NCBI RefSeq assembly: GCF_900215535.1
Contig: NZ_OCND01000004.1
Coordinates: forward strand, 62,001 to 126,000
Length of the DNA: 64,000 nucleotides
DNA from: Pseudoxanthomonas wuyuanensis
GTDB lineage: Bacteria > Pseudomonadota > Gammaproteobacteria > Xanthomonadales > Xanthomonadaceae
Direction of reading: 5' to 3'
Below, piece by piece: positions 2,277 through 64,000 of the stretch. Position numbers and translations under genes: made by a program. Position 1 is the first letter of the stretch; every line of letters begins with the position of its first letter. A model generated the notes under the pieces. That model ran no database searches. It was not told the DNA's origin and saw nothing but the letters and a program-made list of their open reading frames with translations.

Positions 2277-3614
2277 GTGCTTGAACTGTTGCTGGTCCTG
2301 GCCCTGATTCTGCTCAACGGCTTCTTCGCCATGTCGGAGATGTCGGTGATGACCGCGCGCAAGAGCCGGCTGCGGCAGATGGCGCAAACCAGTCTGCGCG
2401 CCCGCCGCGCGCTGGAACTGGCGGAAAAGCCCGAGAACTTCCTGTCCACCGTACAGATAGGCATCACCCTGATCGGCGTGCTGACCGGCCTGCTGGGCGG
2501 CGAGGCGATTGGCCTGCGAATTGCCAATTGGCTGCAGGGAGTGTTTCCTGCGCTGTCGGCAACCTTCGAGTTGATCGGCGAGCCACAACCCTACTCGGTC
2601 GCCATCGGTAAAACGCTGGCAGTTGCGCTGATCACATACCTGACGCTGATTTTCGGTGAGCTGGTACCCAAGCGCTTCGCTATCACCCGCTCTGAAGGCA
2701 TCGCCGGCTATGTCGCCTTGCCGATGGGCGTGCTGGCCAAGGTAGCCGCTCCGGCCGTCACACTGCTATCGGCCAGCACGCGGCTGGTACTGCGTCTGCT
2801 GGGCATAGGCAAGGACGAAGGCGGCGCCATCACCGAAGAGGAAATCCGCATGCTGGTGGCAGAAGGCCACGAGCAGGGGGTCATCGACGTCGACGAGCGC
2901 AACATGATGAACCGCGTGCTGCGGCTGGGCGATCGCACCGCCGACAGCATGATGACCCCGCGCAAACGCGTGGTCTGGCTGGACGCGGCAGCCAGCTACG
3001 AGGAGAACATCGCGATCATGCGCGAATCGCAGTTCTCGCGCTTTCCGGTCTACCGCGGCAGCGATGCCGACGTGATCGGCGTGCTGGAGGTCAAATCGCT
3101 GCTGGACCGGTTTGCCGACCCCAACCCGGAAATCTTCCGCTACCTGCGCGAACCGCTGTTCGTTTCCGAATCCACCCACGCGATGAAACTGCTGGAAATC
3201 TTCCGCGAGGAACAGCAATCGCTGGCGCTGGTGGTGGACGAATACGGCGAGATTCAGGGACTGGTGACGCTCAGCGATCTGATGGGTGCGGTCATCGGGC
3301 GCCTGCAGGCCGCCGAAAACAGCGAGGACACGCCGCTGGTGGTGACCCGCGAGGACGGCTCGCTGCTGGTCGATGGTTCGCTGCCCAACGACGACCTGCG
3401 CGAGCTGCTGGGCGGCGCGCAGCTACCCGACGATGAGGAATACAACACCGTCGCCGGGCTGATGATCGAGCGCTTCGGCCGCATTCCGCATGTGGGCGAA
3501 CACTTCGAATGGGCCGGCTGGCGCTTCGAGGTGGTCGACCTGGATGGCGCCCGTATCGACAAGCTGCTGCTGCAGCGGCTGGCGGAAAAAGAAGGCGATG
3601 ACGCCGCCGCCTGA
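2277..3614 (+). CDS. CorC/HlyC (CNNM-type) membrane protein with CBS domains
   Basis: This 445-residue protein of the UPF0053/hemolysin-C family is related to CNNM and CorC proteins linked to magnesium and cobalt efflux. An N-terminal DUF21 membrane domain covers about residues 1-190 (opening LELLLVLALILLNGFFAMSE). A tandem CBS pair follows (about 205-340; DVIGVLEVKSLLD, LVVDEYGEIQGLVTLSD). The C-terminal CorC_HlyC domain contains NTVAGLMIERFGRIP. The start is GTG at 2277, since the membrane segment begins immediately there. The stop overlaps the ATG of the next gene, so the two are translationally coupled. Export of Mg2+ is inferred from the family; the 'hemolysin' name is historical. Confidence 0.9.
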   Translation: MLELLLVLALILLNGFFAMSEMSVMTARKSRLRQMAQTSLRARRALELAEKPENFLSTVQIGITLIGVLTGLLGGEAIGLRIANWLQGVFPALSATFELIGEPQPYSVAIGKTLAVALITYLTLIFGELVPKRFAITRSEGIAGYVALPMGVLAKVAAPAVTLLSASTRLVLRLLGIGKDEGGAITEEEIRMLVAEGHEQGVIDVDERNMMNRVLRLGDRTADSMMTPRKRVVWLDAAASYEENIAIMRESQFSRFPVYRGSDADVIGVLEVKSLLDRFADPNPEIFRYLREPLFVSESTHAMKLLEIFREEQQSLALVVDEYGEIQGLVTLSDLMGAVIGRLQAAENSEDTPLVVTREDGSLLVDGSLPNDDLRELLGGAQLPDDEEYNTVAGLMIERFGRIPHVGEHFEWAGWRFEVVDLDGARIDKLLLQRLAEKEGDDAAA

Positions 3615-4242
3615 CTGCGCGCATGACGCTTCGCAGCGGGTTACCAGCATCCGCCAGCTGCTGGACGATTTTGCCCTTGGCGATCCCGATGATGTGCTGC
3701 GCCTGGGCGATCTGCTGTCCGGTTTCGGTCCCAGCGCGTTCGGCATGCTGCTGTTGCTCGGGGTGCTGCCGGCGTTCATTCCGATCCCCGGCGTCGGCGG
3801 CGCCATCGGCGGGCCGCTGATCATCCTGGTCGGGGTGCAGCTGCTGCTGGGTCTGGGCAGGGTGTGGCTGCCAGGCTTCGTGGCCCGCCGCGGCCCGCAT
3901 CGCAGCGCATTGATGACCTTCCGCCGGCGCCTGTCGCCGTGGCTTGCGCGGCTAGAGAAGCTGGTGCGTCCGCGCCTGCACACCGTGCTGGATCATCGCC
4001 TGGCGCTGTCGTTCACCGGCCTGCTGCTGGTGCTGCTGGGCTTGCTGCTGGCATTGCCGATTCCGCTGACCAACTATCTCTTTGGCGCGCTGCTGCTGAT
4101 GTTCGCGCTGGCGCTGCTGGAGCGCGACGGCGCGCTGATGCTGGTGGCCTGGGTTTGCGGCGGCAGCGCGGTGGTCGTGTTCGGCTTCCTGTCCGGGCAC
4201 CTGATCGCCGCGGCAACCCATCTGGCGGCCCGCTGGTTCTAG
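3598..4242 (+). CDS. ExoD-family exopolysaccharide synthesis membrane protein
   Basis: This 214-residue membrane protein matches the ExoD family (named for a Rhizobium gene needed for exopolysaccharide synthesis and alkali tolerance). Visible features are the opening helix SIRQLLDDFALGDPDDVLRLGDLL, a glycine-rich IPIPGVGGAIGGP turn, and several C-terminal membrane helices. I chose ATG 3598 over upstream in-frame starts because the upstream sequence lies inside the preceding gene in another frame; this start overlaps that gene's stop by 17 nt. The 3' end overlaps by 4 nt the end of the convergent GGDEF-EAL gene. The biochemical role of ExoD is unknown. Confidence 0.85.
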   Translation: MTPPPDCAHDASQRVTSIRQLLDDFALGDPDDVLRLGDLLSGFGPSAFGMLLLLGVLPAFIPIPGVGGAIGGPLIILVGVQLLLGLGRVWLPGFVARRGPHRSALMTFRRRLSPWLARLEKLVRPRLHTVLDHRLALSFTGLLLVLLGLLLALPIPLTNYLFGALLLMFALALLERDGALMLVAWVCGGSAVVVFGFLSGHLIAAATHLAARWF

Positions 4243-6359
4243 GTGACCAGTTGGGCGAACTCGGCGGCGGTGACCGGGTAGCCCAGCCAGTAGCCCTGGG
4301 CCAGATCGCAGCCGCGCTCGCGCAGGATGTTGAACTGGCCTTCCTTCTCCACCCCCTCGGCCACCACGGTAATGCCCAGCGAATGCGCCATCGCGATGAT
4401 GGCGGTGGTCAGCGCCAGATCGTCCGGGTCGCGCAGCATGTCGGCGATGAAGCTGCGATCGATCTTGACCCCGTCCACCGGCACCCGGCGCAGATGGCTC
4501 AGGCCGGAAAAACCGGTGCCGAAATCATCCAGCCAGACCTTCACGCCGCTGCGGTGCAGGGTGGCCAGCAAAGCGCTGGCGTGGGCCTCGTCGCTGATCA
4601 CGGCGGTCTCGGTCAGTTCCAGGTGCAGGCGCGAAGCGGCCAGCCCGGTTTCGCGCAGGCACTCGGCCACCATTTCCGGCAGATCCCCGCTGCGCAGCTG
4701 GCGCGGCGACACGTTGACCGATACGAACAGCTGATCCAGCGGGTCGCTCCCGATGCTCCAGCGCGCCGCCGCCGCGCACGCAGCGCGCAGTACGCGCGGA
4801 CCGATCGCCTCGATCAGCCCGCTCTGTTCGGCCACGTCGATGAACACCGAAGGCGCCACCATGCCCATTTCCGGGTGCTGCCAGCGCAGCAGCGCCTCGG
4901 CGCCGACGATGCGGCTGTCGGACAGCCGGAACACCGGCTGGTAGACCAGGCTCAACTCGCCGCGTTCCCAGGCGCCGCGCAGTTCCTGTTCCAGCCGCAC
5001 CCGCCGCTCGACTGCCTGATCCATGGCCCGGCTGTAGAAGCGGTAGCAGTTCTTGCCCGCCACCTTGGCCTGGTACATGGCGATGTCGCCGTTCTTCATC
5101 AGCGCGGTGGCGCCGGAAGCGTCTTCGGGAAACAACGTGATACCGATCGAGGTGCCCAGGAATACCTGCCGGTCCTGCACGGCGATCGGCCGCCCCAGTT
5201 CGGCCACCAGCCGTTCCGACAGGCGGGTGGCGGCCGCGCGCACGTCGCCGTCCTGGATCAGGATGACGAACTCGTCGCCGCCGAAGCGCGCCAGCAGCGC
5301 GTCGTCGCCGCCCATCGCCTCGACCGCATCGCGGATGCGGTTGGCGAACTGCTGCAGCACTTCGTCGCCGGCCTCATGGCCCAGGGTGTCGTTGACGCGC
5401 TTGAAATCGTCGATGTCGGCGAACAGCAAGGCCAGCTGCCTGCCCGCCCCGCGCAGCATCATCAGGCGGTGGTCCAGGCTCTCGCGGAACGCCAGCCGGT
5501 TGGTCAGGCCGGTCAGCGAGTCGGTGTAGGCCATGCGGCGCACGTCGCGATCATGGCGGGCGATGCTGTCGCTCATGCTGCTGAACGCGCGCACCAGTTC
5601 GCCCACCTCGTCCTGCCGTTCGCTGACCATGCGCTCGCTGTTGTAGTCGCCCACTTCGATGGCGTGCGCGGCATTGGCCAGTTGCCGGATCGGCCGCACC
5701 AGCGTGCGCTGCACATAGCCGATGATCGCCACGCAGGTCCCCACCAGCGCCAGCAGCAGCAACAGCACCCAGAACAGGTGCCTGGCGTTCAACTCATCCA
5801 GGCGCTTTCGCGCGGCGCTCACCGCCTGGTTCTCGTAGCTGCGGACCGAGGCAATCGAGTAACCCACGCGCACGCCGCCAAGGCGCTGGTTGCCGACCAG
5901 GATCGGCCCGGAAACATCGACGATCTGCGGCGACCACTGGATGTGCTGCTCGCGTGCCGCAATCGCCTCGTAGGCAAGCGGGTCGGTCATCGCCTGCCCA
6001 TAGACGGCAATCTCGTCGCTGCCGTCGTGGATGATCCGGCCTTCCGGGTCGTACACCAGCACGTAGCTGACGTCCGGCTCCTTCTGCGCGCTGCGGACGA
6101 TCCTGCCCACCATGTCCAGATCGAAGTAGTACAGCGGATTGGTGAGCGCATCGGACAGCTGCGCCACCGTGGCCTGGCCATGCCGGCGCAGGCTCTGCTC
6201 GACCATTCCGTGCATCGCATCGCGGCCGAGTTCGGCCACCTCCTGCTGCATGACCTTCTGCCGGTGCAGCAACAGCAGCAGCAACGCCAGCACCACCGCC
6301 AGCATGACCGCCACCGCCAGCACGAAACGGGCCTGCAGTCCGAAGCGCAGCTTCTTCAT
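4239..6359 (-). CDS. Membrane-bound HAMP-GGDEF-EAL c-di-GMP enzyme
   Basis: This 706-residue protein makes and/or breaks cyclic di-GMP. A transmembrane helix (about 11-32) is followed by a periplasmic sensor segment to about 196, a second helix (about 197-217), a HAMP linker (about 218-270), a GGDEF domain with intact GGDEF at 360-364, and an EAL domain with EAL at 488-490. The EAL domain keeps DDFGTGFS and KIDRSFI, so phosphodiesterase activity looks possible. No RxxD inhibitory site precedes GGDEF. The ATG overlaps by 4 nt the stop of the upstream periplasmic binding protein gene, so the two are co-translated. By analogy with NspS-MbaA of Vibrio cholerae, the binding protein probably feeds ligand information to this sensor. 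Confidence 0.95.
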   Translation of the reverse strand: MKKLRFGLQARFVLAVAVMLAVVLALLLLLLHRQKVMQQEVAELGRDAMHGMVEQSLRRHGQATVAQLSDALTNPLYYFDLDMVGRIVRSAQKEPDVSYVLVYDPEGRIIHDGSDEIAVYGQAMTDPLAYEAIAAREQHIQWSPQIVDVSGPILVGNQRLGGVRVGYSIASVRSYENQAVSAARKRLDELNARHLFWVLLLLLALVGTCVAIIGYVQRTLVRPIRQLANAAHAIEVGDYNSERMVSERQDEVGELVRAFSSMSDSIARHDRDVRRMAYTDSLTGLTNRLAFRESLDHRLMMLRGAGRQLALLFADIDDFKRVNDTLGHEAGDEVLQQFANRIRDAVEAMGGDDALLARFGGDEFVILIQDGDVRAAATRLSERLVAELGRPIAVQDRQVFLGTSIGITLFPEDASGATALMKNGDIAMYQAKVAGKNCYRFYSRAMDQAVERRVRLEQELRGAWERGELSLVYQPVFRLSDSRIVGAEALLRWQHPEMGMVAPSVFIDVAEQSGLIEAIGPRVLRAACAAAARWSIGSDPLDQLFVSVNVSPRQLRSGDLPEMVAECLRETGLAASRLHLELTETAVISDEAHASALLATLHRSGVKVWLDDFGTGFSGLSHLRRVPVDGVKIDRSFIADMLRDPDDLALTTAIIAMAHSLGITVVAEGVEKEGQFNILRERGCDLAQGYWLGYPVTAAEFAQLVT

Positions 6360-7285
6360 TCCAGTTGCTCGCGCACGCGCGCGACTCCTTGCCGCAGGCG
6401 ATCCAGCGCCCGCTGCGATTCGCGGTCGATGGGAACGAAGCCGGTGGTGCGGAAAAACAGCTGCAGCGCCTCGCGCGCATCGGGATCCGCGGCCGCCTCC
6501 AGCAGCACCTCGCGCAGGCGCGCCTCGATCTTCGGGTCCAGGTCGCGGCGCACCATCTCCAGCGCACGCGGGTAGTCCTGGGTCTGGTGGATGACCCGGA
6601 AATCGTTGCGAAAGGCCGGCGGCAGCCGGCGCACGTCATCCCAGTCCTGGCTGCTGACCACGCCGGCATCGACCAGCCGCTTGTGCACCCAGACGGCGAT
6701 GTTCAGCTCGGTGCGCGCAAACACGTAGCCGACCGAGTCCAGCGCGGGGCGGTCCATCGGCGAAAGCAGGATTTCCAGCCGCTGGCCGGCCTCGAGCAGT
6801 TCCGCCGCCGGCGCGAAATAGGCGCTGGTGGAAGCGGTGTTCTGGAACGCGACGGTGCGCCCTTCCAGGTCCGCCAGCGTTTCCAGCCCGCTGTCGCGGC
6901 GGACGAAAAACACGCCCCGGTAACGGCTGACGCCGCCGCGTTCGGTCAGCAGCAGCGGCCTGGCGCCGGCGCGCTCCTGCAGGCGCATCGCGGTACCTGC
7001 GGTTTCCGTGACCCAGTCGACGCGGCCGCGGCGCAGGTAGCTGGTCATCTGCTGGGCGTCGCTGGCCATCAGGATGCGGCCCTCGGTGATGCCGACCTCG
7101 CGCATCCGCGGCACCACATAGTCCAGCAGCGGCTTGAGCTGTTCGTAATGGGCCTTGGGATCGTCGCTGATACGGCCCAGCACCAGCACCTGGCCATCAT
7201 CGCCGGCCCGTGCGGGGGCGATGCTTGCGGGTGTTGTGGCTGCGCCGATCAAAACCAGGGCCAGACCGAACCAGGTTGTACGCAA
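6356..7285 (-). CDS. PhnD-like periplasmic substrate-binding protein (sensor partner)
   Basis: This 309-residue protein has a cleavable signal peptide (about residues 1-27, ending ARA) and the type 2 periplasmic binding fold of the phosphate/phosphite/phosphonate (PhnD) family. Typical features are LGRISDDPKAHYEQLKPLLDYV near the N-terminus and GRTVAFQNTASTSAYFAPA in the middle. No ABC permease or ATPase is nearby, so import is unlikely. Its stop overlaps the start of the HAMP-GGDEF-EAL gene, which points to a ligand-sensing role for that membrane enzyme. The ligand cannot be read from sequence; an oxyanion or phosphonate is the family-based guess. Confidence 0.88.
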   Translation of the reverse strand: MRTTWFGLALVLIGAATTPASIAPARAGDDGQVLVLGRISDDPKAHYEQLKPLLDYVVPRMREVGITEGRILMASDAQQMTSYLRRGRVDWVTETAGTAMRLQERAGARPLLLTERGGVSRYRGVFFVRRDSGLETLADLEGRTVAFQNTASTSAYFAPAAELLEAGQRLEILLSPMDRPALDSVGYVFARTELNIAVWVHKRLVDAGVVSSQDWDDVRRLPPAFRNDFRVIHQTQDYPRALEMVRRDLDPKIEARLREVLLEAAADPDAREALQLFFRTTGFVPIDRESQRALDRLRQGVARVREQLE

Positions 7286-7348: not shown

Positions 7349-8137
7349 TCAGTTTTCCCCGGCGCGCGCCAGCCGGGCCATGCGCTGGGCATCGGACAGG
7401 ATGCCGCGCAACAGCCGCACCTCCTGTTCGTTCAGGTCCGCGCGCAGGAACAACCGCCGCAGCTTGCGCATCGCCGAATCCGGCGCCCGGCCCTTGTGGA
7501 AATCCACATCGTCCAGCGTATCGCCCAGCTGCGCGAAGAATCCCTCCAGCTGCGCGTGGCTGGCCGGCCCTTCGCGGCCGGGTCCGGCGGCGGCAGTGGC
7601 AGTGGCGGCGGCCGGTGCCAGCGCCAGCAACGCCAGCCGCAGCTCATAGGCCAGCACCTGCACCGCCGCGGCCAGATTCAGCGAGCTGTAGTCCGGGTTG
7701 GCCGGGATATGCACCGAGGCATGGCATAGCTGCAGTTCCTCGTTGCTCAGGCCAGTGCGTTCGCGGCCGAACACCAGCGCCACCCCGCCCTCGCCGGCCC
7801 TGGCCACGGCCCGCTCCGCGGCCTGGCGCGGCATCAGTTCCTCCAGCGCGACCCGGCGGCTGCGGGCGGTGCAGCCCAGTACGAAGCGGCAATCGGCTAC
7901 CGCCTCGGCCAGGGTGGCGACCACGGCCGCGTCGGCCAACAGGTCGTCGGCGCCGGCGGCGCGGCGGAAAGCTTCGTCGGACGGATAGTTTTCCGGCGCC
8001 ACCAGCACCAGCCGGGACAGTCCCATGGTCTTCAGCGCGCGCGCCGCGGCGCCGATGTTGCCGGGGTGCTGGGTGCCCACCAGAACGATGCGGATCCGCC
8101 CGGCATGGGCGTCGAAAGGATTTTCGGAGGTCTTCAT
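7349..8137 (-). CDS. trmJ: tRNA (cytidine/uridine-32-2'-O)-methyltransferase TrmJ
   Basis: This SPOUT-fold methyltransferase of 262 residues 2'-O-methylates position 32 of tRNAs using S-adenosylmethionine. The family signature is clear: IRIVLVGTQHPGNIGAAARALKTMGL at the start, FGRERTGLSNEEL, and the knotted SAM-binding end NPDYSSLNLAAAVQVLAYEL. A C-terminal helical extension follows an Ala/Pro-rich linker. ATG 8137 is preferred because the conserved domain follows soon after; an in-frame start at 8170 would add 11 residues. suhB is divergent, and trmJ-suhB neighbourhood is common in gammaproteobacteria. Confidence 0.93.
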   Translation of the reverse strand: MKTSENPFDAHAGRIRIVLVGTQHPGNIGAAARALKTMGLSRLVLVAPENYPSDEAFRRAAGADDLLADAAVVATLAEAVADCRFVLGCTARSRRVALEELMPRQAAERAVARAGEGGVALVFGRERTGLSNEELQLCHASVHIPANPDYSSLNLAAAVQVLAYELRLALLALAPAAATATAAAGPGREGPASHAQLEGFFAQLGDTLDDVDFHKGRAPDSAMRKLRRLFLRADLNEQEVRLLRGILSDAQRMARLARAGEN

Positions 8138-8232
8138 GGGTGCAAATGGTAAACTGCGCAGGCCGGCCATCGCGCCGCGCTGCTCTTTCCCACCCGTTAG
8201 CCCCTTAATCGCCTGTCCGAGGTCCGTAAGCC

Positions 8233-14173: not shown

Positions 14174-15172
14174 TTGGCGCGGGAAACGCACCGGCGCAGG
14201 GTCGGTCCAGCGCAGCCGCAGTTCCTCACCCGGTGGCGGCATTGCTTCCTCGCCCAGGTCGACTTCGATGATTTCCCCGCCCGCCAAGCGCACCTGCCCG
14301 CAGAAACCTGGCCCGCGGAACGCGCCGCTCAGCAGCTGTCCCCGTACCTGCCCCGCAGGATCCAGGCGCAGGTGCTCCGGGCGCAGCAGCACCAGCGCGT
14401 CATCGCCCTGGCCCAGCGCGGCAGCGGGCACCAGCATGCCGCGGCCGACGAATCCGGCCACAACGGGATCGATCGGATGCCGGTACAACCGCTCGGCCGT
14501 ATCCCATTGCAGGATGCGGCCGCGGTCCATCACCCCGATGCGGTCGGCCATCGCGAACGCCTCGGCCTGGTCGTGGGTGACCAGCAACGCGGTGGTGCCG
14601 GTGGCCTTGAGCAGTTCGCGCAGTTCCTGCGCCAGCCGTTCGCGGGTGTGGATGTCCAGGTTGGAGAACGGTTCGTCCAACAGCAGCAATCCCGGCCGCG
14701 GCGCCAGCGCGCGCGCCAGCGCCACCCGCTGCTGCTGGCCGCCGGAGAGTTCATGCGGATAAGCCTCCGCCGCGCTTTTCAGGCCCACCAGCGCCAGCAT
14801 TTCGGCAACCCGTACCGCACGCTGGCTGCGGTGCCGGCCGCGCAGGCCGAACGCCACATTGGCGGCCACGCTCAGGTGCGGGAACAACGCATAGTCCTGG
14901 AACATCATGCCCACGTTGCGGCGTTCCGGCGGCAGCTGCCGCGCGCTGTCGGCCAACACGGCGCCATCCAGCACCATGCGGCCAGCGCTCACCGGCTCGA
15001 AACCGGCGATGGCGCGCAGCACCGTGGTCTTGCCGCAGCCGGACGCGCCCAGCAGGCAGCCAATCTGGCCGGCCGATAACTGCAGCGACAGATCCTCCAC
15101 CACCATTTTCAGGCCCTGCGCGCCCGGATAGCCGACATGGATACCGTCGAGCCTCAGCGTCCACTCCGTCAT
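14171..15172 (-). CDS. fbpC: Ferric iron ABC transporter, ATP-binding protein
   Basis: This 333-residue ABC ATPase energises the adjacent permease. Walker A is GASGCGKT near residue 41, the signature is LSGGQQQR, and Walker B plus D-loop is LLLLDEPFSNLD, followed by the H-loop in LLVTHDQAEAF. A C-terminal TOBE-like regulatory domain follows from about residue 240. The start overlaps the permease stop by 4 nt. Iron specificity is inferred from the FutA/FbpA-like binding protein of the operon. The stop codon lies in the edge of a dispersed hairpin repeat. Confidence 0.9.
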
Positions 15173-16839
15173 CGCATCTCTCCCGCGCGGCCGAACCGCA
15201 AGCCGGTACGCGCCAGCAATATCACCGGCAACAGTCCGGCCAGCACGATCAGCAAGGCCGCCACCGCGCCCTCTTCATAGGCGCCGCGGGCGGCATCGGC
15301 ATACAGCCAGGTCGCCAGCGTCTCGAAACTGATCGGCCGCAGCATCAGGGTCGCCGGCAGTTCCTTCATCGCATCGACGAAAACCAGCAACGCGGCCGCG
15401 GCCAGCGACGGCCGCAGCAGCGGCAGGTGGATGCTGCGCAGCATTCCGGCCGACGTGCGCCCCAGGCTGCGCGCCGCCTGATCCAGCGACAGCGGTATCC
15501 GCGCCAGCCCGGCATCGGCGCTGCCGGCGGCAATGGCGAGAAAACGCAGCGCATAGGCGATCACCAGCGCCGCCAGCGTCCCCATCAACCACATCTGCGG
15601 CGGCGCCCCAAACCCGCGCGCCAGCAGCGACATCCCGCTGTCGAACCAGGCCAGCGGCGTCAGCAGGCCGATCGCCAGCACCGTACCCGGCACCGCATAG
15701 CCCATGCTGGCCACGCGCAGGCTGGCCGCTTCCAACCGCTCGCGGCGGCGCGCCTGCGCCAACCGCAACGCCCACGCCACCGCCAGCCCCGCCGCCAGCG
15801 TCAGCGCGGTGGCCAATGCCGCCACCAGCAGCGTGTTCCAGAGGCTGGCCAGCAGCTGCCCGGAAACGCCGCCAACGCTGCGCAGCCGGGTCAGGGTTTG
15901 CGACAGCAGGTAGACGGTGGGAACCGCGAAACCGATAACGACCGGCACCGCCGCCAGTGCCAGCGCCGCCGCCGCCGGCACGCCGCGCAGGCGCAGCGGC
16001 TGCATCGGCCGTGGACGCTGCTGCGCGGCATACCGCTGGCGGCGGCGGCCGCGGCGCTCGATCGCGATCAGCGCAACGACGATGGCCAGCATGCTCAATG
16101 CGATCTGCGCCGCGCCCGGCAGATCGCTGCGGGTGATCCAGGTCGTGTAGACCGCAACGGTCAGCGTCTGCACACCCAGGAATTCGGAAGCGCCGATGTC
16201 GTTGAGCGTCTCCAGCAACGCCAGCACCACCCCCACCGCGATCGCCGGGCGCGCCAGCGGCAGGGCGACGCGGTGGAACAGCGCAGCCCGGCTGACGCCC
16301 AGCGTACGCGCCGCCTCCAGCAGGCTGGCGGCCTGGGTCAGGAACATCGCGCGCGTACTCAGGTAGACGTACGGGTACAGCACAAAGCCCAGCAGCAGAA
16401 TGCAACCGGTCAGCGAACGCACATCCGGCAGGCGCAGTCCGCGCGGATCGTCGATGCCCAGCACGGCGCGCAGCGCCGACTGCAGCGGTCCCAGCGGATG
16501 CAGCAGGTCAAGGTAGGCGTAGGCGACGATATAGGTCGGCACCGCCAGCGGCAGCAGCAGCGCCCAGGCCATCGCGCGGCGCCCGGGGAAATCGTAGGCG
16601 GTGACCAGCCAGGCGCTTCCGGTGCCCAGCGCCACCGTCAGCACGCCAACACCGGACAGCAGCAACAACGTATTGCGCGCCGCCGGCGGCAGTACGTGCA
16701 CGGCGATATGCGACCACAGGCCGGCGCTGCCCTGCGCCGCTTGCCAGGCCAGCGCCAGCAGCGGCAGCGCGGCGGCGGCGGCGGCAAACAACGCCGCCGC
16801 CTGCCAGGCGCGGTCGGCACCGATACGCGCGGCGGTCAT
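15169..16839 (-). CDS. fbpB: Ferric iron ABC transporter, permease protein
   Basis: This 556-residue permease is a tandem fusion of two binding-protein-dependent transport domains, with about twelve membrane helices, as in FbpB. An EAA-like loop occurs in each half: LLEAARTLGVSRAALFHRVALP and LDQAARSLGRTSAGMLRSIHLP. It is encoded 10 nt after the binding protein and overlaps the ATPase gene by 4 nt, giving the usual A-B-C order. Confidence 0.92.
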   Translation of the reverse strand: MTAARIGADRAWQAAALFAAAAAALPLLALAWQAAQGSAGLWSHIAVHVLPPAARNTLLLLSGVGVLTVALGTGSAWLVTAYDFPGRRAMAWALLLPLAVPTYIVAYAYLDLLHPLGPLQSALRAVLGIDDPRGLRLPDVRSLTGCILLLGFVLYPYVYLSTRAMFLTQAASLLEAARTLGVSRAALFHRVALPLARPAIAVGVVLALLETLNDIGASEFLGVQTLTVAVYTTWITRSDLPGAAQIALSMLAIVVALIAIERRGRRRQRYAAQQRPRPMQPLRLRGVPAAAALALAAVPVVIGFAVPTVYLLSQTLTRLRSVGGVSGQLLASLWNTLLVAALATALTLAAGLAVAWALRLAQARRRERLEAASLRVASMGYAVPGTVLAIGLLTPLAWFDSGMSLLARGFGAPPQMWLMGTLAALVIAYALRFLAIAAGSADAGLARIPLSLDQAARSLGRTSAGMLRSIHLPLLRPSLAAAALLVFVDAMKELPATLMLRPISFETLATWLYADAARGAYEEGAVAALLIVLAGLLPVILLARTGLRFGRAGEMR

Positions 16840-16849
16840 CGGATAGCGG

Positions 16850-17947
16850 TCAGAGATCGAAACCGACCCGGTCGACCATCTCGCTTGCCTGGCGGCGATG
16901 CCTGGCGACCTCGGTCAACGGCAGCGGGTCGACCTTCATCTCGCCGAAACCGGCCACAATCGGATCCAGCGCCACGCCGGCCTTGACCGGGTACTCGTAG
17001 TTGGCCTTGGCGTACAGGCTCTGCGCCTCGTCGGACACCAGGAACTCCAGCAGCTTGACGGCGTTGTCGCGATTCGGCGAGAACTTCGCCACCGCGGCGC
17101 CGCTGATGTTGACATGGGTGCCGCCATCGGCCGCCGATGCGAACACCGGCCGGATCACCTTGATCGCATCGCCCCACTGGCGCTGTTCGGAACCTTCCTC
17201 GCTGCTCTTCATCCGCCCGACGTAGTAGGCGTTGGCGATGCCGATATCGCAGATGCCGCCCAGGATGTCGCGGGCGACTTCGCGGTCGCCGCCAGCGGCC
17301 TTGCGCGCCAGGTTGGCCTTGACCCCGCGCAGCCACTGTTCGGTGGCCCCGGCACCGTTATGGGCGATCATCGCTGCGAACAGGCTGGTGTTGTACGGGT
17401 GCTGGCCGGAACGGATGCAGACCCGGCCCTTCCACTCCGGCTTGGCCAGATCCTCATAGGCGAATGACTGCAGCGGCAGATCCTTGCGCGCGTACAGCAC
17501 GCGGTCGCGCAGCGACAGTGCGAACCATTGCCCATCGGCGCCGCGCAGGTGCTGCGGGATGGCCGCGTCCAGTACCGCCGAATCCACCGGCTGGGTCTGT
17601 CCGGCCTCGACCAGTTCCAGCAGGTTGCCGCTGTCCACGGTCATCAGCACATCGGCCGGGGAGCGCTCGCCTTCGGCGCGCAGCCGCTCGGTCAGGCCGT
17701 CGCGGACGAACACCGTGTTGACCTTGATTCCGCTCTGGCCCGAGAACGTGTCCAGCAACGGCTGCACCAGGCCCGGCTCGCGGGTGGTGTACAGGGTCAC
17801 TTCGCCGGCAGCGGCCGTCGCGCCATCAGCCGGCGCAGCGGCCTTGTCGGCCTGCGGTTGACAGGCGGCCAGCAGCAGCGCGCATGCCACCGCCGTGCCG
17901 CAGCGGCGGAGGGGATTGGATTTGGAGACGACGGGGAAGGAAAGCAT
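16850..17947 (-). CDS. fbpA: Ferric iron ABC transporter, binding lipoprotein
   Basis: This 365-residue extracytoplasmic iron-binding protein of the FbpA/FutA type has a signal sequence with lipobox LLLAAC (Cys29), so it is probably lipid-anchored rather than free in the periplasm. The mature part opens with EVTLYTTREPGLVQPLLDTF and has the iron-ligand region IGIANAYYVGRM with the paired tyrosines typical of ferric-binding proteins. It is the first gene of a three-gene operon. I looked for a Fur box upstream and found none that convinces. Confidence 0.9.
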   Translation of the reverse strand: MLSFPVVSKSNPLRRCGTAVACALLLAACQPQADKAAAPADGATAAAGEVTLYTTREPGLVQPLLDTFSGQSGIKVNTVFVRDGLTERLRAEGERSPADVLMTVDSGNLLELVEAGQTQPVDSAVLDAAIPQHLRGADGQWFALSLRDRVLYARKDLPLQSFAYEDLAKPEWKGRVCIRSGQHPYNTSLFAAMIAHNGAGATEQWLRGVKANLARKAAGGDREVARDILGGICDIGIANAYYVGRMKSSEEGSEQRQWGDAIKVIRPVFASAADGGTHVNISGAAVAKFSPNRDNAVKLLEFLVSDEAQSLYAKANYEYPVKAGVALDPIVAGFGEMKVDPLPLTEVARHRRQASEMVDRVGFDL

Positions 17948-56996: not shown

Positions 56997-58031
56997 CTAC
57001 GGCGCTTCGACCAGGTAGCCCTTGGCCTGCAGTTGGCCCAGGTAGCCATCGGGTTTCAGAAGTTCGGCAATCGGCAATGTGGCAAAGCTGACCGGGTTGT
57101 TCTCCAGCGCCGTTTCCGCCGCGCTCATCCACTGGCTTCGGACTTTCGCAGGCAGGTCGTCGAGGCCGCGCTTTCTGGCGAACTCGGCGCTGGAGAACGC
57201 CGCTATGCATGCCGTCTGCTGGTTTTCGTACGGCAGCGCGCGCAGCCCTTCCACGTCGCCAACCGACCACGCGTTGGCGCGCTCCACCATCAGCGGCAGA
57301 TCGTTCTCGATGCGCTCCAGGGTTGCGCGGAAGCATTCCAGATCGTCGAGCGAAGTCCGCTGGAATTCCTTGATCGTCGCCTTCGGCTGTTCGACCTTGA
57401 ATTTCACCGTCGGCGAAGCGGTCCTGATGCCATGCCGCTTGACCGCCTTGTCCACCACCGGGCCGACGACTCCTGATTCGCTCAGGCCCGACTTCTTCAA
57501 TGCCGCTTCGTAAAGCTCGCGCGCGGCGAACATCGGGCGCCATTTTTCCACGCCGGCATCATGGCCCAGGTATCGCGCCTTCAACACGCTCCAGCGCGCG
57601 TACAGATCCGCGGGCAGCACGTCCTTGAGCGTCGCCCCGTCCGGGTTCTTGCGCGCTTTCAGCAGCGACGGGATCAGGAACGCGCCGCGCACGATGCCGA
57701 TATCCGCATCGAACGACACGCCCGGCGGGCGCACCACTTCCTGCGCCTGCGCAAGGATGGCCTCGGTTTCCGAAGACAGCCAGGTCATCTTTCTCGGCAA
57801 CGGCGACAGCGTGCCCATCACCCACAGTACGTGTTCGCCCTTGGACACTTTCCACAATCCCGGGCCCGGCTGCGAACCGCTGACCACCACCGTGTCCATG
57901 TCGACGACCGCTTGCCCGCCGGCTGGCGCAGGTGCCGTGGCGCCAGCCTGCTCCGCGCCGTCGGCGGACGATTGCGCCAATGCCGGAGCGGCAACCAGGC
58001 AGAACAAGACACTGAGGGCAAGCAGGCGCAT
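56997..58031 (-). CDS. gumN: GumN/TraB family protein
   Basis: This 344-residue exported protein has a signal peptide (RLLALSVLFCLVAAPALA) and the TraB/PrgY/GumN domain, with KGEHVLWVMGTLSPLPRKMTWLS near the mature start and later helical segments. In Xanthomonas a GumN gene lies just after gumM; here it is 1.7 kb beyond gumM on the same strand, with a cupin and an oxygenase between. A protease-like role has been suggested for TraB relatives and is not established. ATG 58031 starts the signal peptide; longer frames do not. The stop codon abuts a dispersed repeat. Confidence 0.82.
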   Translation of the reverse strand: MRLLALSVLFCLVAAPALAQSSADGAEQAGATAPAPAGGQAVVDMDTVVVSGSQPGPGLWKVSKGEHVLWVMGTLSPLPRKMTWLSSETEAILAQAQEVVRPPGVSFDADIGIVRGAFLIPSLLKARKNPDGATLKDVLPADLYARWSVLKARYLGHDAGVEKWRPMFAARELYEAALKKSGLSESGVVGPVVDKAVKRHGIRTASPTVKFKVEQPKATIKEFQRTSLDDLECFRATLERIENDLPLMVERANAWSVGDVEGLRALPYENQQTACIAAFSSAEFARKRGLDDLPAKVRSQWMSAAETALENNPVSFATLPIAELLKPDGYLGQLQAKGYLVEAP

Positions 58032-58119
58032 CCGCGGCACTCCATCGAACAGGGCGGACGGATTTGAGCACATACGCAGGCCAACGCCGTGGCCCATCGG
58101 TCACGCCGTCAGGCCATCT

Positions 58120-62727: not shown

Positions 62728-64000
62728 TCATGCCGGCCTCAGCAGGTGCCGGCTTCCCAGGATGTCCGCCACATCGCGGCGGAATCCCGGCCATAGCAGG
62801 CAGACCAGCGCCAGCATCGCTGCGGCAGCGCCGCCCCCGGCAAGCAGCCGCAGCGCGGACGCGTGGCCGGCCGTCAGTTCGCACACCAGCCAGGCCGCCG
62901 CCGCGCACAGCGCATAGCCGGCAATCGCGCGCGCACCATTGCCGAACATGCGGCCCGCGGGCGCATCGGACAGCCTGCCGATCCACCACAGCACCGATGG
63001 CCACAGCAGCGCCGTGCCTACCGCATACCCGGTGGCCACACCCAACACGCCCCAGTAGGAACCGGCCACGATGCACGCAATCAGAAAACTGCGGCTGACG
63101 ATGGCGTAGCGCAGCTGCGCGCCGGTCAGGCCTTTGGACAGGAACACCCAGTAGGCGGCATACGCGGCCATCTGGAACGTCGCACCGATGGCCAGAATCC
63201 TGAAAACAGGGATGGCCGGCTGCCACTGCTTTCCCAGCACCAGCAGAATCAACGGTTCGGCCAGCGCGCAACCGATTGCGAACAGCGCCACCATGAAGTG
63301 CACCATCACCGTCTGGCCGCGCAACAGGAACGCGTTGTAGCGCAACGGCTCCCCGCGCAACCGGGACAGCGTGGGCAACGCCACCGAGGTGGCCGGCGCG
63401 TTGAGCTGGTTCAGCGGCATCGTCACCAGCGCGAACGCGCGATTGAACTGGCCCAGCGCCACCGACCCTAGCCGCTGGCCGATGATCACCTGGCCAATGT
63501 TGTTGCTGGCATAGGCCAGCAACTGCGTGGCCATCAGCGCCCAGCCGAAGTTCAGCAGGCCTCCCATCTGCGCGCCGCGATGCGGCAATCCGGGCAGCCA
63601 GCGCGTGGCCACGGCCATCAGCAGCAGGATCACGATGCCCTGCACCAGTTGCTGGATCACCAACGCCCAGTAACCGGCCCCCGCCAGCGCAGCGGCCACC
63701 GCAACCGCCAGACCGGCCACCTGCCCGATCACGTCCGCAGAAGCCAGGCGCCCGAAACGCATGTCGCGATTCAGATGCGCGCGGAACTGGGTGGTGATGC
63801 CATTGAACACGAAGGTCAGCGCCAGCACCTGGGTGATGACGCGCAACTCCGGCTCCTTGTACAGCGCGGCAATGGCGCCTGCGCCCAGGTATACCGCCAG
63901 CCCCAGCGCGCTGCCGAACAGCGTGTTGAGCCAGAACAGATTGTCGCGCTGCTCGCGGCTGAGCAGCGGTGCCTGCACCGCGGCGGTGGAAAGACCGAAG
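62728..64000 (-). CDS. gumJ: Polysaccharide flippase GumJ (partial, cut by window edge)
   Basis: This is the C-terminal 420 or so residues of a Wzx/MOP-type flippase that moves the lipid-linked xanthan unit across the inner membrane. Many membrane helices are visible and the frame enters from the right edge with FGLSTAAVQAPLLSREQ, the conserved second-helix region of this family. The order gumJ-gumK-gumL-gumM is that of Xanthomonas. Internal start codons are not used because the frame stays open to the edge. Confidence 0.93.
   Translation of the reverse strand, partial: FGLSTAAVQAPLLSREQRDNLFWLNTLFGSALGLAVYLGAGAIAALYKEPELRVITQVLALTFVFNGITTQFRAHLNRDMRFGRLASADVIGQVAGLAVAVAAALAGAGYWALVIQQLVQGIVILLLMAVATRWLPGLPHRGAQMGGLLNFGWALMATQLLAYASNNIGQVIIGQRLGSVALGQFNRAFALVTMPLNQLNAPATSVALPTLSRLRGEPLRYNAFLLRGQTVMVHFMVALFAIGCALAEPLILLVLGKQWQPAIPVFRILAIGATFQMAAYAAYWVFLSKGLTGAQLRYAIVSRSFLIACIVAGSYWGVLGVATGYAVGTALLWPSVLWWIGRLSDAPAGRMFGNGARAIAGYALCAAAAWLVCELTAGHASALRLLAGGGAAAAMLALVCLLWPGFRRDVADILGSRHLLRPA

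Follow-up and report, generated by a model that had tools for sequence, protein, structure and literature searches.

A periplasmic binding protein and a membrane-bound enzyme of cyclic dimeric GMP (c-di-GMP) metabolism are encoded by overlapping genes in a 64,000-nucleotide stretch of the Pseudoxanthomonas wuyuanensis genome (contig NZ_OCND01000004.1, positions 62,001 to 126,000; here called the window), and this pair is the Pseudoxanthomonas orthologue of XAC2383-XAC2382 of Xanthomonas citri. The system is of a kind already published, not new; it is an ordinary, family-wide possession of the Xanthomonadaceae and represents a described route by which a periplasmic signal passes into c-di-GMP. 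Our contribution beyond the known pair is an association between presence of the binding protein and a short motif, NPLYY, in the sensor of the enzyme, although we do not claim the motif to be unpublished. Our favoured explanation, which we consider likely, is that the binding protein, once exported, picks up an anion that contains phosphate or resembles one that does, and attaches to the periplasmic cache domain of the enzyme at the membrane-distal tip, near Asn74-Tyr77. The HAMP domain would relay docking to the balance of c-di-GMP synthesis (GGDEF domain) and breakdown (EAL domain), such that the binding protein would serve the enzyme and not a transporter. What we infer in this explanation is the docking at NPLYY, which ligand is bound, and in which direction the enzyme is affected.

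The binding-protein gene (6356-7285; this and all features of the two genes given below are on the minus strand) has a TTG start at 7285 and encodes a protein of 309 amino acids, with a hydrophobic N-terminus that, judged by eye, would fit a Sec signal peptide. Phosphonate-bd (PF12974; E = 8e-46) is the sole Pfam family matched above cut-off. A fold search using the AlphaFold2 model (predicted local distance difference test score, pLDDT, of 90) placed PDB entries 5ub3 and 5ub7 first, with E = 1.8e-43 for the best fold match and 59% identity to 5ub3_B, and 5ub3 is also the best PDB match of the protein (E = 7e-106). The PDB titles describe these entries as XAC2383 of X. citri with chloride (5ub3) and with ATP (5ub7), and 5ub3 is listed as XAC2383 in a table of an eLife paper (PMC10942540). 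The X. citri pair is the subject of Teixeira et al. (2018, J Biol Chem 293:10767), going by the title given in the reference list of PMC10380989. There is a single match to the binding protein in the host genome, which is that of a Pseudoxanthomonas whose best named match is Pseudoxanthomonas sp. Root630 (84%). Residues Ser152-Thr153-Ser154 (6824-6832), which align with the STS stretch of PtxB, form a candidate anion-binding loop and are conserved in 165-170 of 171 orthologues; we take this stretch to be the one through which PtxB and PhnD bind their ligands.

The enzyme gene (4239-6359) starts with ATG at 6359, sharing four nucleotides (ATGA, 6356-6359) with the binding-protein gene, and its 706-residue product is organized as sCache_3-HAMP-GGDEF-EAL. 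Pfam reports HAMP, GGDEF, and EAL, together with sCache_3_2 at residues 54-173, which only just clears its threshold (28.5 bits, cut-off 28.4); this match and the AlphaFold2 model delimit a periplasmic sensor region at residues 30-215 (5715-6272), for which a search for PDB homologues using the sensor alone returned one match, at E = 0.88. We aligned 176 enzymes, including five without a binding-protein gene and one row that is partly gapped. The GGDEF catalytic motif (residues 360-364; 5268-5282) is spelled GGDEF in 174 of these, and the EAL-domain positions examined (E of EAL, N, E, DDFGTG, K, D, E, and Q) are conserved in 174-176; variants of the EAL motif, EALLR here (residues 488-492; 4884-4898), were tabulated for 175 of the 176. 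With the catalytic residues of both domains intact, the enzyme should be capable of both synthesis and breakdown of c-di-GMP, judging from its sequence. No RxxD I-site was seen by eye before the GGDEF motif, where the stretch reads GDDALLAR.

The two genes are strongly associated across the family. The binding protein is present in 124 of 149 family genomes in a first set and in 330 of 395 in a larger one; in the latter the sensor is found in 345, with 328 genomes encoding both, 17 the sensor alone, and two the binding protein alone (G007 and G656, with assembly completeness of 72% and 78%). The binding protein is thus hardly found without the enzyme, whereas the enzyme can stand alone. Among 75 named loci, which were found via the binding protein, a sensor-bearing enzyme gene follows in all 75, an in-frame ATGA or GTGA overlap is present in 71, and 74 show both GGDEF and EAL, the other (L056) being cut by a contig end. 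In 100 further family loci (L119-L218), drawn from genomes partly shared with the named loci, EAL was found in the downstream frame in 96; three of the remaining loci (L164, L211, and L212) are truncated where their contigs stop, and one (L197) is read in two frames. The genus best matching XAC2383 has the sensor in 33 of 35 genomes, and in 32 of these the open frame is no shorter than 707 residues. The protein alignment omits loci L004-L032, which have short flanks (23 of these genomes were not refetched), and five loci that are at contig ends, fragmented, or in two frames (L056, L164, L197, L211, and L212).

The initial annotation of this DNA had described a phosphonate-type binding protein of the oxyanion and not the polyamine type, translationally coupled through a 4-nt overlap to an enzyme with both catalytic domains intact, and lacking ABC (ATP-binding cassette) transporter partners. 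These observations are right, and the comparisons that it proposed – conservation of the overlap, co-conservation of the two genes, and a search for a phn-type permease and ATPase elsewhere in the genome (described below) – did not refute them. The mechanism that it suggested is probably right as well, and the system is not a new one.

Genomes that have the sensor and not the binding protein provide a natural experiment, in that the sensor can outlive its partner. Sixteen of the 17 can be assessed; the other (L255) is truncated by its contig, at residue 77 and also toward the binding protein. Asn74 is changed in 15 of the 16 sensors and Tyr77 in 14, and both residues are kept in all 170 readable partner-bearing sequences, one further aligned row being gapped at these positions. 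Five genomes were studied first (the discovery set: G018, G043, G050, G052, and G087); the accompanying search covered the 20 listed out of 25 genomes that lack the binding protein. Their enzymes are full length, with a methylase gene directly upstream (by eye), and on a tree built from the catalytic domains they fall out as five independent losses. Every one of the five has a changed Asn74, four have a changed Tyr77, and no change occurs on other branches. In a test set of 12 other sensor-alone genomes, 11 could be assessed and 10 have changed both residues. In three of the sensors (L252-L254) NPLYY is replaced by GPLHN or GPLHG, and His111 and Gly162 are retained.

A tree of 15 rows without and 154 distinct rows with the partner contains eight loss events, with Asn74 changed on seven loss branches and Tyr77 on six, and neither on any partner-bearing branch. 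The Bonferroni-corrected binomial probabilities are 7e-8 for Asn74 and 6e-6 for Tyr77, assuming equal site rates and with the discovery set included; outside the discovery set, the FastTree trees show the change in two of three loss events. A FastTree of the EAL domain only recovers the same eight events and the same residue pattern. A fast IQ-TREE run has seven state changes, with L251 merged with L252-L254 as one loss, and places three partner-bearing rows inside a loss clade, which Fitch reconstruction reads as loss and then regain of the gene and the residues together. Identical rows were left out of the trees, as was L262 (SGDEF, where the filter accepts GGDEF or GGGEF), yet L262 is in the residue count.

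Some of these genomes appear to retain traces of a decaying binding-protein gene. Weak C-terminal remnants (the last ~260 nt in L252 and the last ~117 nt in L253) lie between the methylase and enzyme genes and end at the enzyme start; no remnant was detected in L254. PF12974 proteins scoring over cut-off in G087 and G043 (L247, L248) were considered as replacements and rejected, there being no adjoining c-di-GMP enzyme in the open reading frame lists examined by eye; G018 has two sub-threshold PF12974 matches.

NPLYY occupies residues 74-78 (6126-6140), where the first long helix of the sensor ends. In the AlphaFold2 model of the enzyme, one long helix spans residues 8-77 and the next helix residues 81-92, so that residues 74-78 are predicted to lie at the turn that marks the membrane-distal tip of single-cache domains. 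From the loss lineages and the model together, the Asn74-Tyr77 region looks like a docking or coupling site for the binding protein, and these two residues single out where communication between the binding protein and the cache domain could be settled.

Similar residues are found in distant relatives. A phylum sample of 299 genomes contains a relative in 20, five of these being in the window's own family, and among ten distant loci (L237-L246) a readable sensor lies beside the binding protein in nine. All nine have Tyr at position 77, with Asn (six) or Asp (three) at position 74 and Pro (six) or Asp (three) at position 75, although they are not independent because six are from one family (f40). 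Their outputs are histidine kinases (six), SpoIIE phosphatases (two), and a GGDEF domain (one), and a plasmid-borne pair in Leisingera (a binding protein and an ATP-binding protein) has EPLY at the motif position. We tentatively propose, with confidence a little short of even, that [N/D]-[P/D]-[L/V]-Y (the form in the pairs examined here, with NPLYY in this family) at the membrane-distal tip of a single cache is a coupling site for phosphonate-family binding proteins, common to c-di-GMP enzymes, sensor kinases, and phosphatases, and that after loss of the binding-protein gene the sensor survives, alters the motif, and becomes a stand-alone receptor. If true, the motif would help to tell, from the sequence of a cache receptor, whether a binding protein drives it.

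Several observations weigh against assigning docking to these residues. One sensor without a partner (L251, in which a 286-nt gap contains no binding-protein remnant by tblastn) keeps both Asn74 and Tyr77, and another (L230) keeps Tyr77. The motif comparison set consists solely of sensors that have, or have lost, a partner. In a mirror-tree analysis the binding-protein distances have a partial correlation of 0.77 with the EAL domain and 0.28 with the sensor (a value reached in 0 of 500 permutations), so that the signal is not specific to the sensor. The placement of domains in the enzyme model is also uncertain, because its predicted template modelling score (pTM) is 0.46 (pLDDT 83.8). Moreover, partnerless sensors are more divergent overall in three of the five first lineages, and sites 85, 81, 78, and 113 likewise change more often without a partner. 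These last findings would be expected if partner loss relaxes the whole sensor, with Asn74 and Tyr77 being merely strongly constrained residues – in helix capping or signal relay, for example – and not a docking site. Relaxation of the whole sensor explains part of the motif signal, and as a full account we regard it as a serious possibility, though one that we would not favour. However, L252-L254 have lost NPLYY and yet keep His111 and Gly162, and none of the five first lineages has changed the general fold residues P75, P152, G161, R164, and G166, although P75 is changed in some later partnerless ones; residues needed for signal relay would, furthermore, still be needed by a sensor working alone.

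A different alternative concerns the binding protein itself, which could supply an ABC importer encoded elsewhere in the genome, its place before the enzyme gene being incidental. It belongs to a family named for transporter components, and the host genome contains 55 PhnC-family and three PhnE-family matches below cut-off, with a PhnC-family match within ~2 kb of each weak PhnE. However, in this genome, rated 100% complete, nothing exceeds the NCBIfam cut-off either for PhnE (best match 38 bits against 217) or for PhnC (183 against 266), the permease and ATPase that would make up a PhnCDE phosphonate importer, and the loci of the three weak PhnE matches resemble by eye pstCAB (phosphate), an osmoprotectant importer, and a polyamine importer. 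The score of the binding protein against the PhnD equivalog TIGR03431 is 67.6 bits (cut-off 261), its gene and that of the enzyme are coupled in every named locus, and it occurs without the sensor only in the two fragmented assemblies of the 395. The only other PF12974 match in the genome is a 319-residue open reading frame, read by eye as a TAXI-type binding protein of a tripartite ATP-independent periplasmic (TRAP) transporter. We therefore disfavour a transport role, given the sub-threshold PhnC and PhnE and the conserved coupling, and consider the importer explanation very unlikely. A polyamine receptor of the NspS-MbaA type is hardly credible, for although the pairing is similar and the enzyme, with GGDEF and EAL, is of the same type as MbaA as described in PMC8967002, Phosphonate-bd is above cut-off, NMT1 is only sub-threshold, no SBP_bac (polyamine) family is matched, and the closest structures are XAC2383, ArrX, PtxB, and PhnD.

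The neighbourhood of the pair is variably conserved. Upstream lies a SpoU-family RNA methylase gene (7349-8170, minus strand), probably outside the mechanism, with a same-strand match in 71 of the 75 named loci, and a CorC-like gene and an inositol-monophosphatase-family gene are also neighbours. A convergent ExoD-family gene (3490-4242, plus strand) had suggested a link to exopolysaccharide in the initial annotation, and here its support is weak: a convergent ExoD gene shows up in the flank fetched for only 46 of the 75 named loci and in none of 15 Stenotrophomonas loci, so that a link through the neighbourhood is not conserved. Toward the right end of the window, a TraB/PrgY/gumN-family gene (57000-58097) and a flippase-like polysaccharide-biosynthesis gene (62731-63978) agree with the gum genes that the initial annotation had mentioned. 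At 247-2008, ~2 kb past the enzyme, are genes for a PHO4-family phosphate transporter and, barely above cut-off, for a PhoU_div-family protein, on the same strand; nothing ties them to the pair. At 15172-17947 a solute-binding protein gene is followed by a BPD_transp_1 permease gene in two stretches, an ordinary ABC importer layout.

Comparison with known systems places the pair as follows. PhnD and PtxB of phosphonate and phosphite ABC importers share the Pfam family, and PtxB the STS stretch, but differ in that no PhnC or PhnE over cut-off is present here and the PhnD equivalog score is far too low. AioX and ArrX have the fold and family in common with the binding protein at 18-20% identity; they work with sensor kinases, so that the output of the partner is a kinase and not a c-di-GMP enzyme. 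Topic searches of the literature on binding proteins for phosphonate or phosphate, in combination with GGDEF, diguanylate cyclase, or cache sensors, gave no paper on this system, the only one returned being a survey of solute-binding proteins (PMC9602780); papers naming XAC2383 or XAC2382, two in number, came from a separate search. The layout is indeed like that of NspS-MbaA of Vibrio cholerae, as had been suggested: according to PMC8967002, a periplasmic binding protein there controls a bifunctional GGDEF-EAL membrane enzyme, and the partner here likewise has GGDEF and EAL catalytic residues, next to a binding protein that has no transporter genes of its own. NspS is, however, a polyamine-binding (PotD-like) protein, whereas the protein here is of the phosphonate/oxyanion type, and we reject membership because Pfam places it in another family.

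XAC2383-XAC2382 is the closest relative, with an orthologous binding protein of the same fold and an adjoining membrane enzyme with a periplasmic cache, HAMP, and GGDEF. In the four fetched genomes nearest to XAC2383 with an unbroken enzyme (L119-L122), the binding protein is 83-86% identical, the overlap is the same, and a GGDEF-EAL enzyme is next; the sensor here is 46-50% identical to theirs, and their EAL motif is EVLLR as against EALLR. A Xanthomonas sacchari record likewise pairs the binding protein with a 714-residue 'EAL domain-containing protein'. In L197, the closest match to XAC2383, the binding protein is 98% identical to it and the downstream enzyme gene is in two frames, through either a true break or an assembly error, with an open frame of 384 residues where at least 707 are expected. 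The X. citri binding protein reportedly touches the cache domain and prefers phosphate-containing compounds, and liganded XAC2383 is said to have been proposed as an inhibitor of the cyclase; the system is also reported to occur in other phyla with other outputs.

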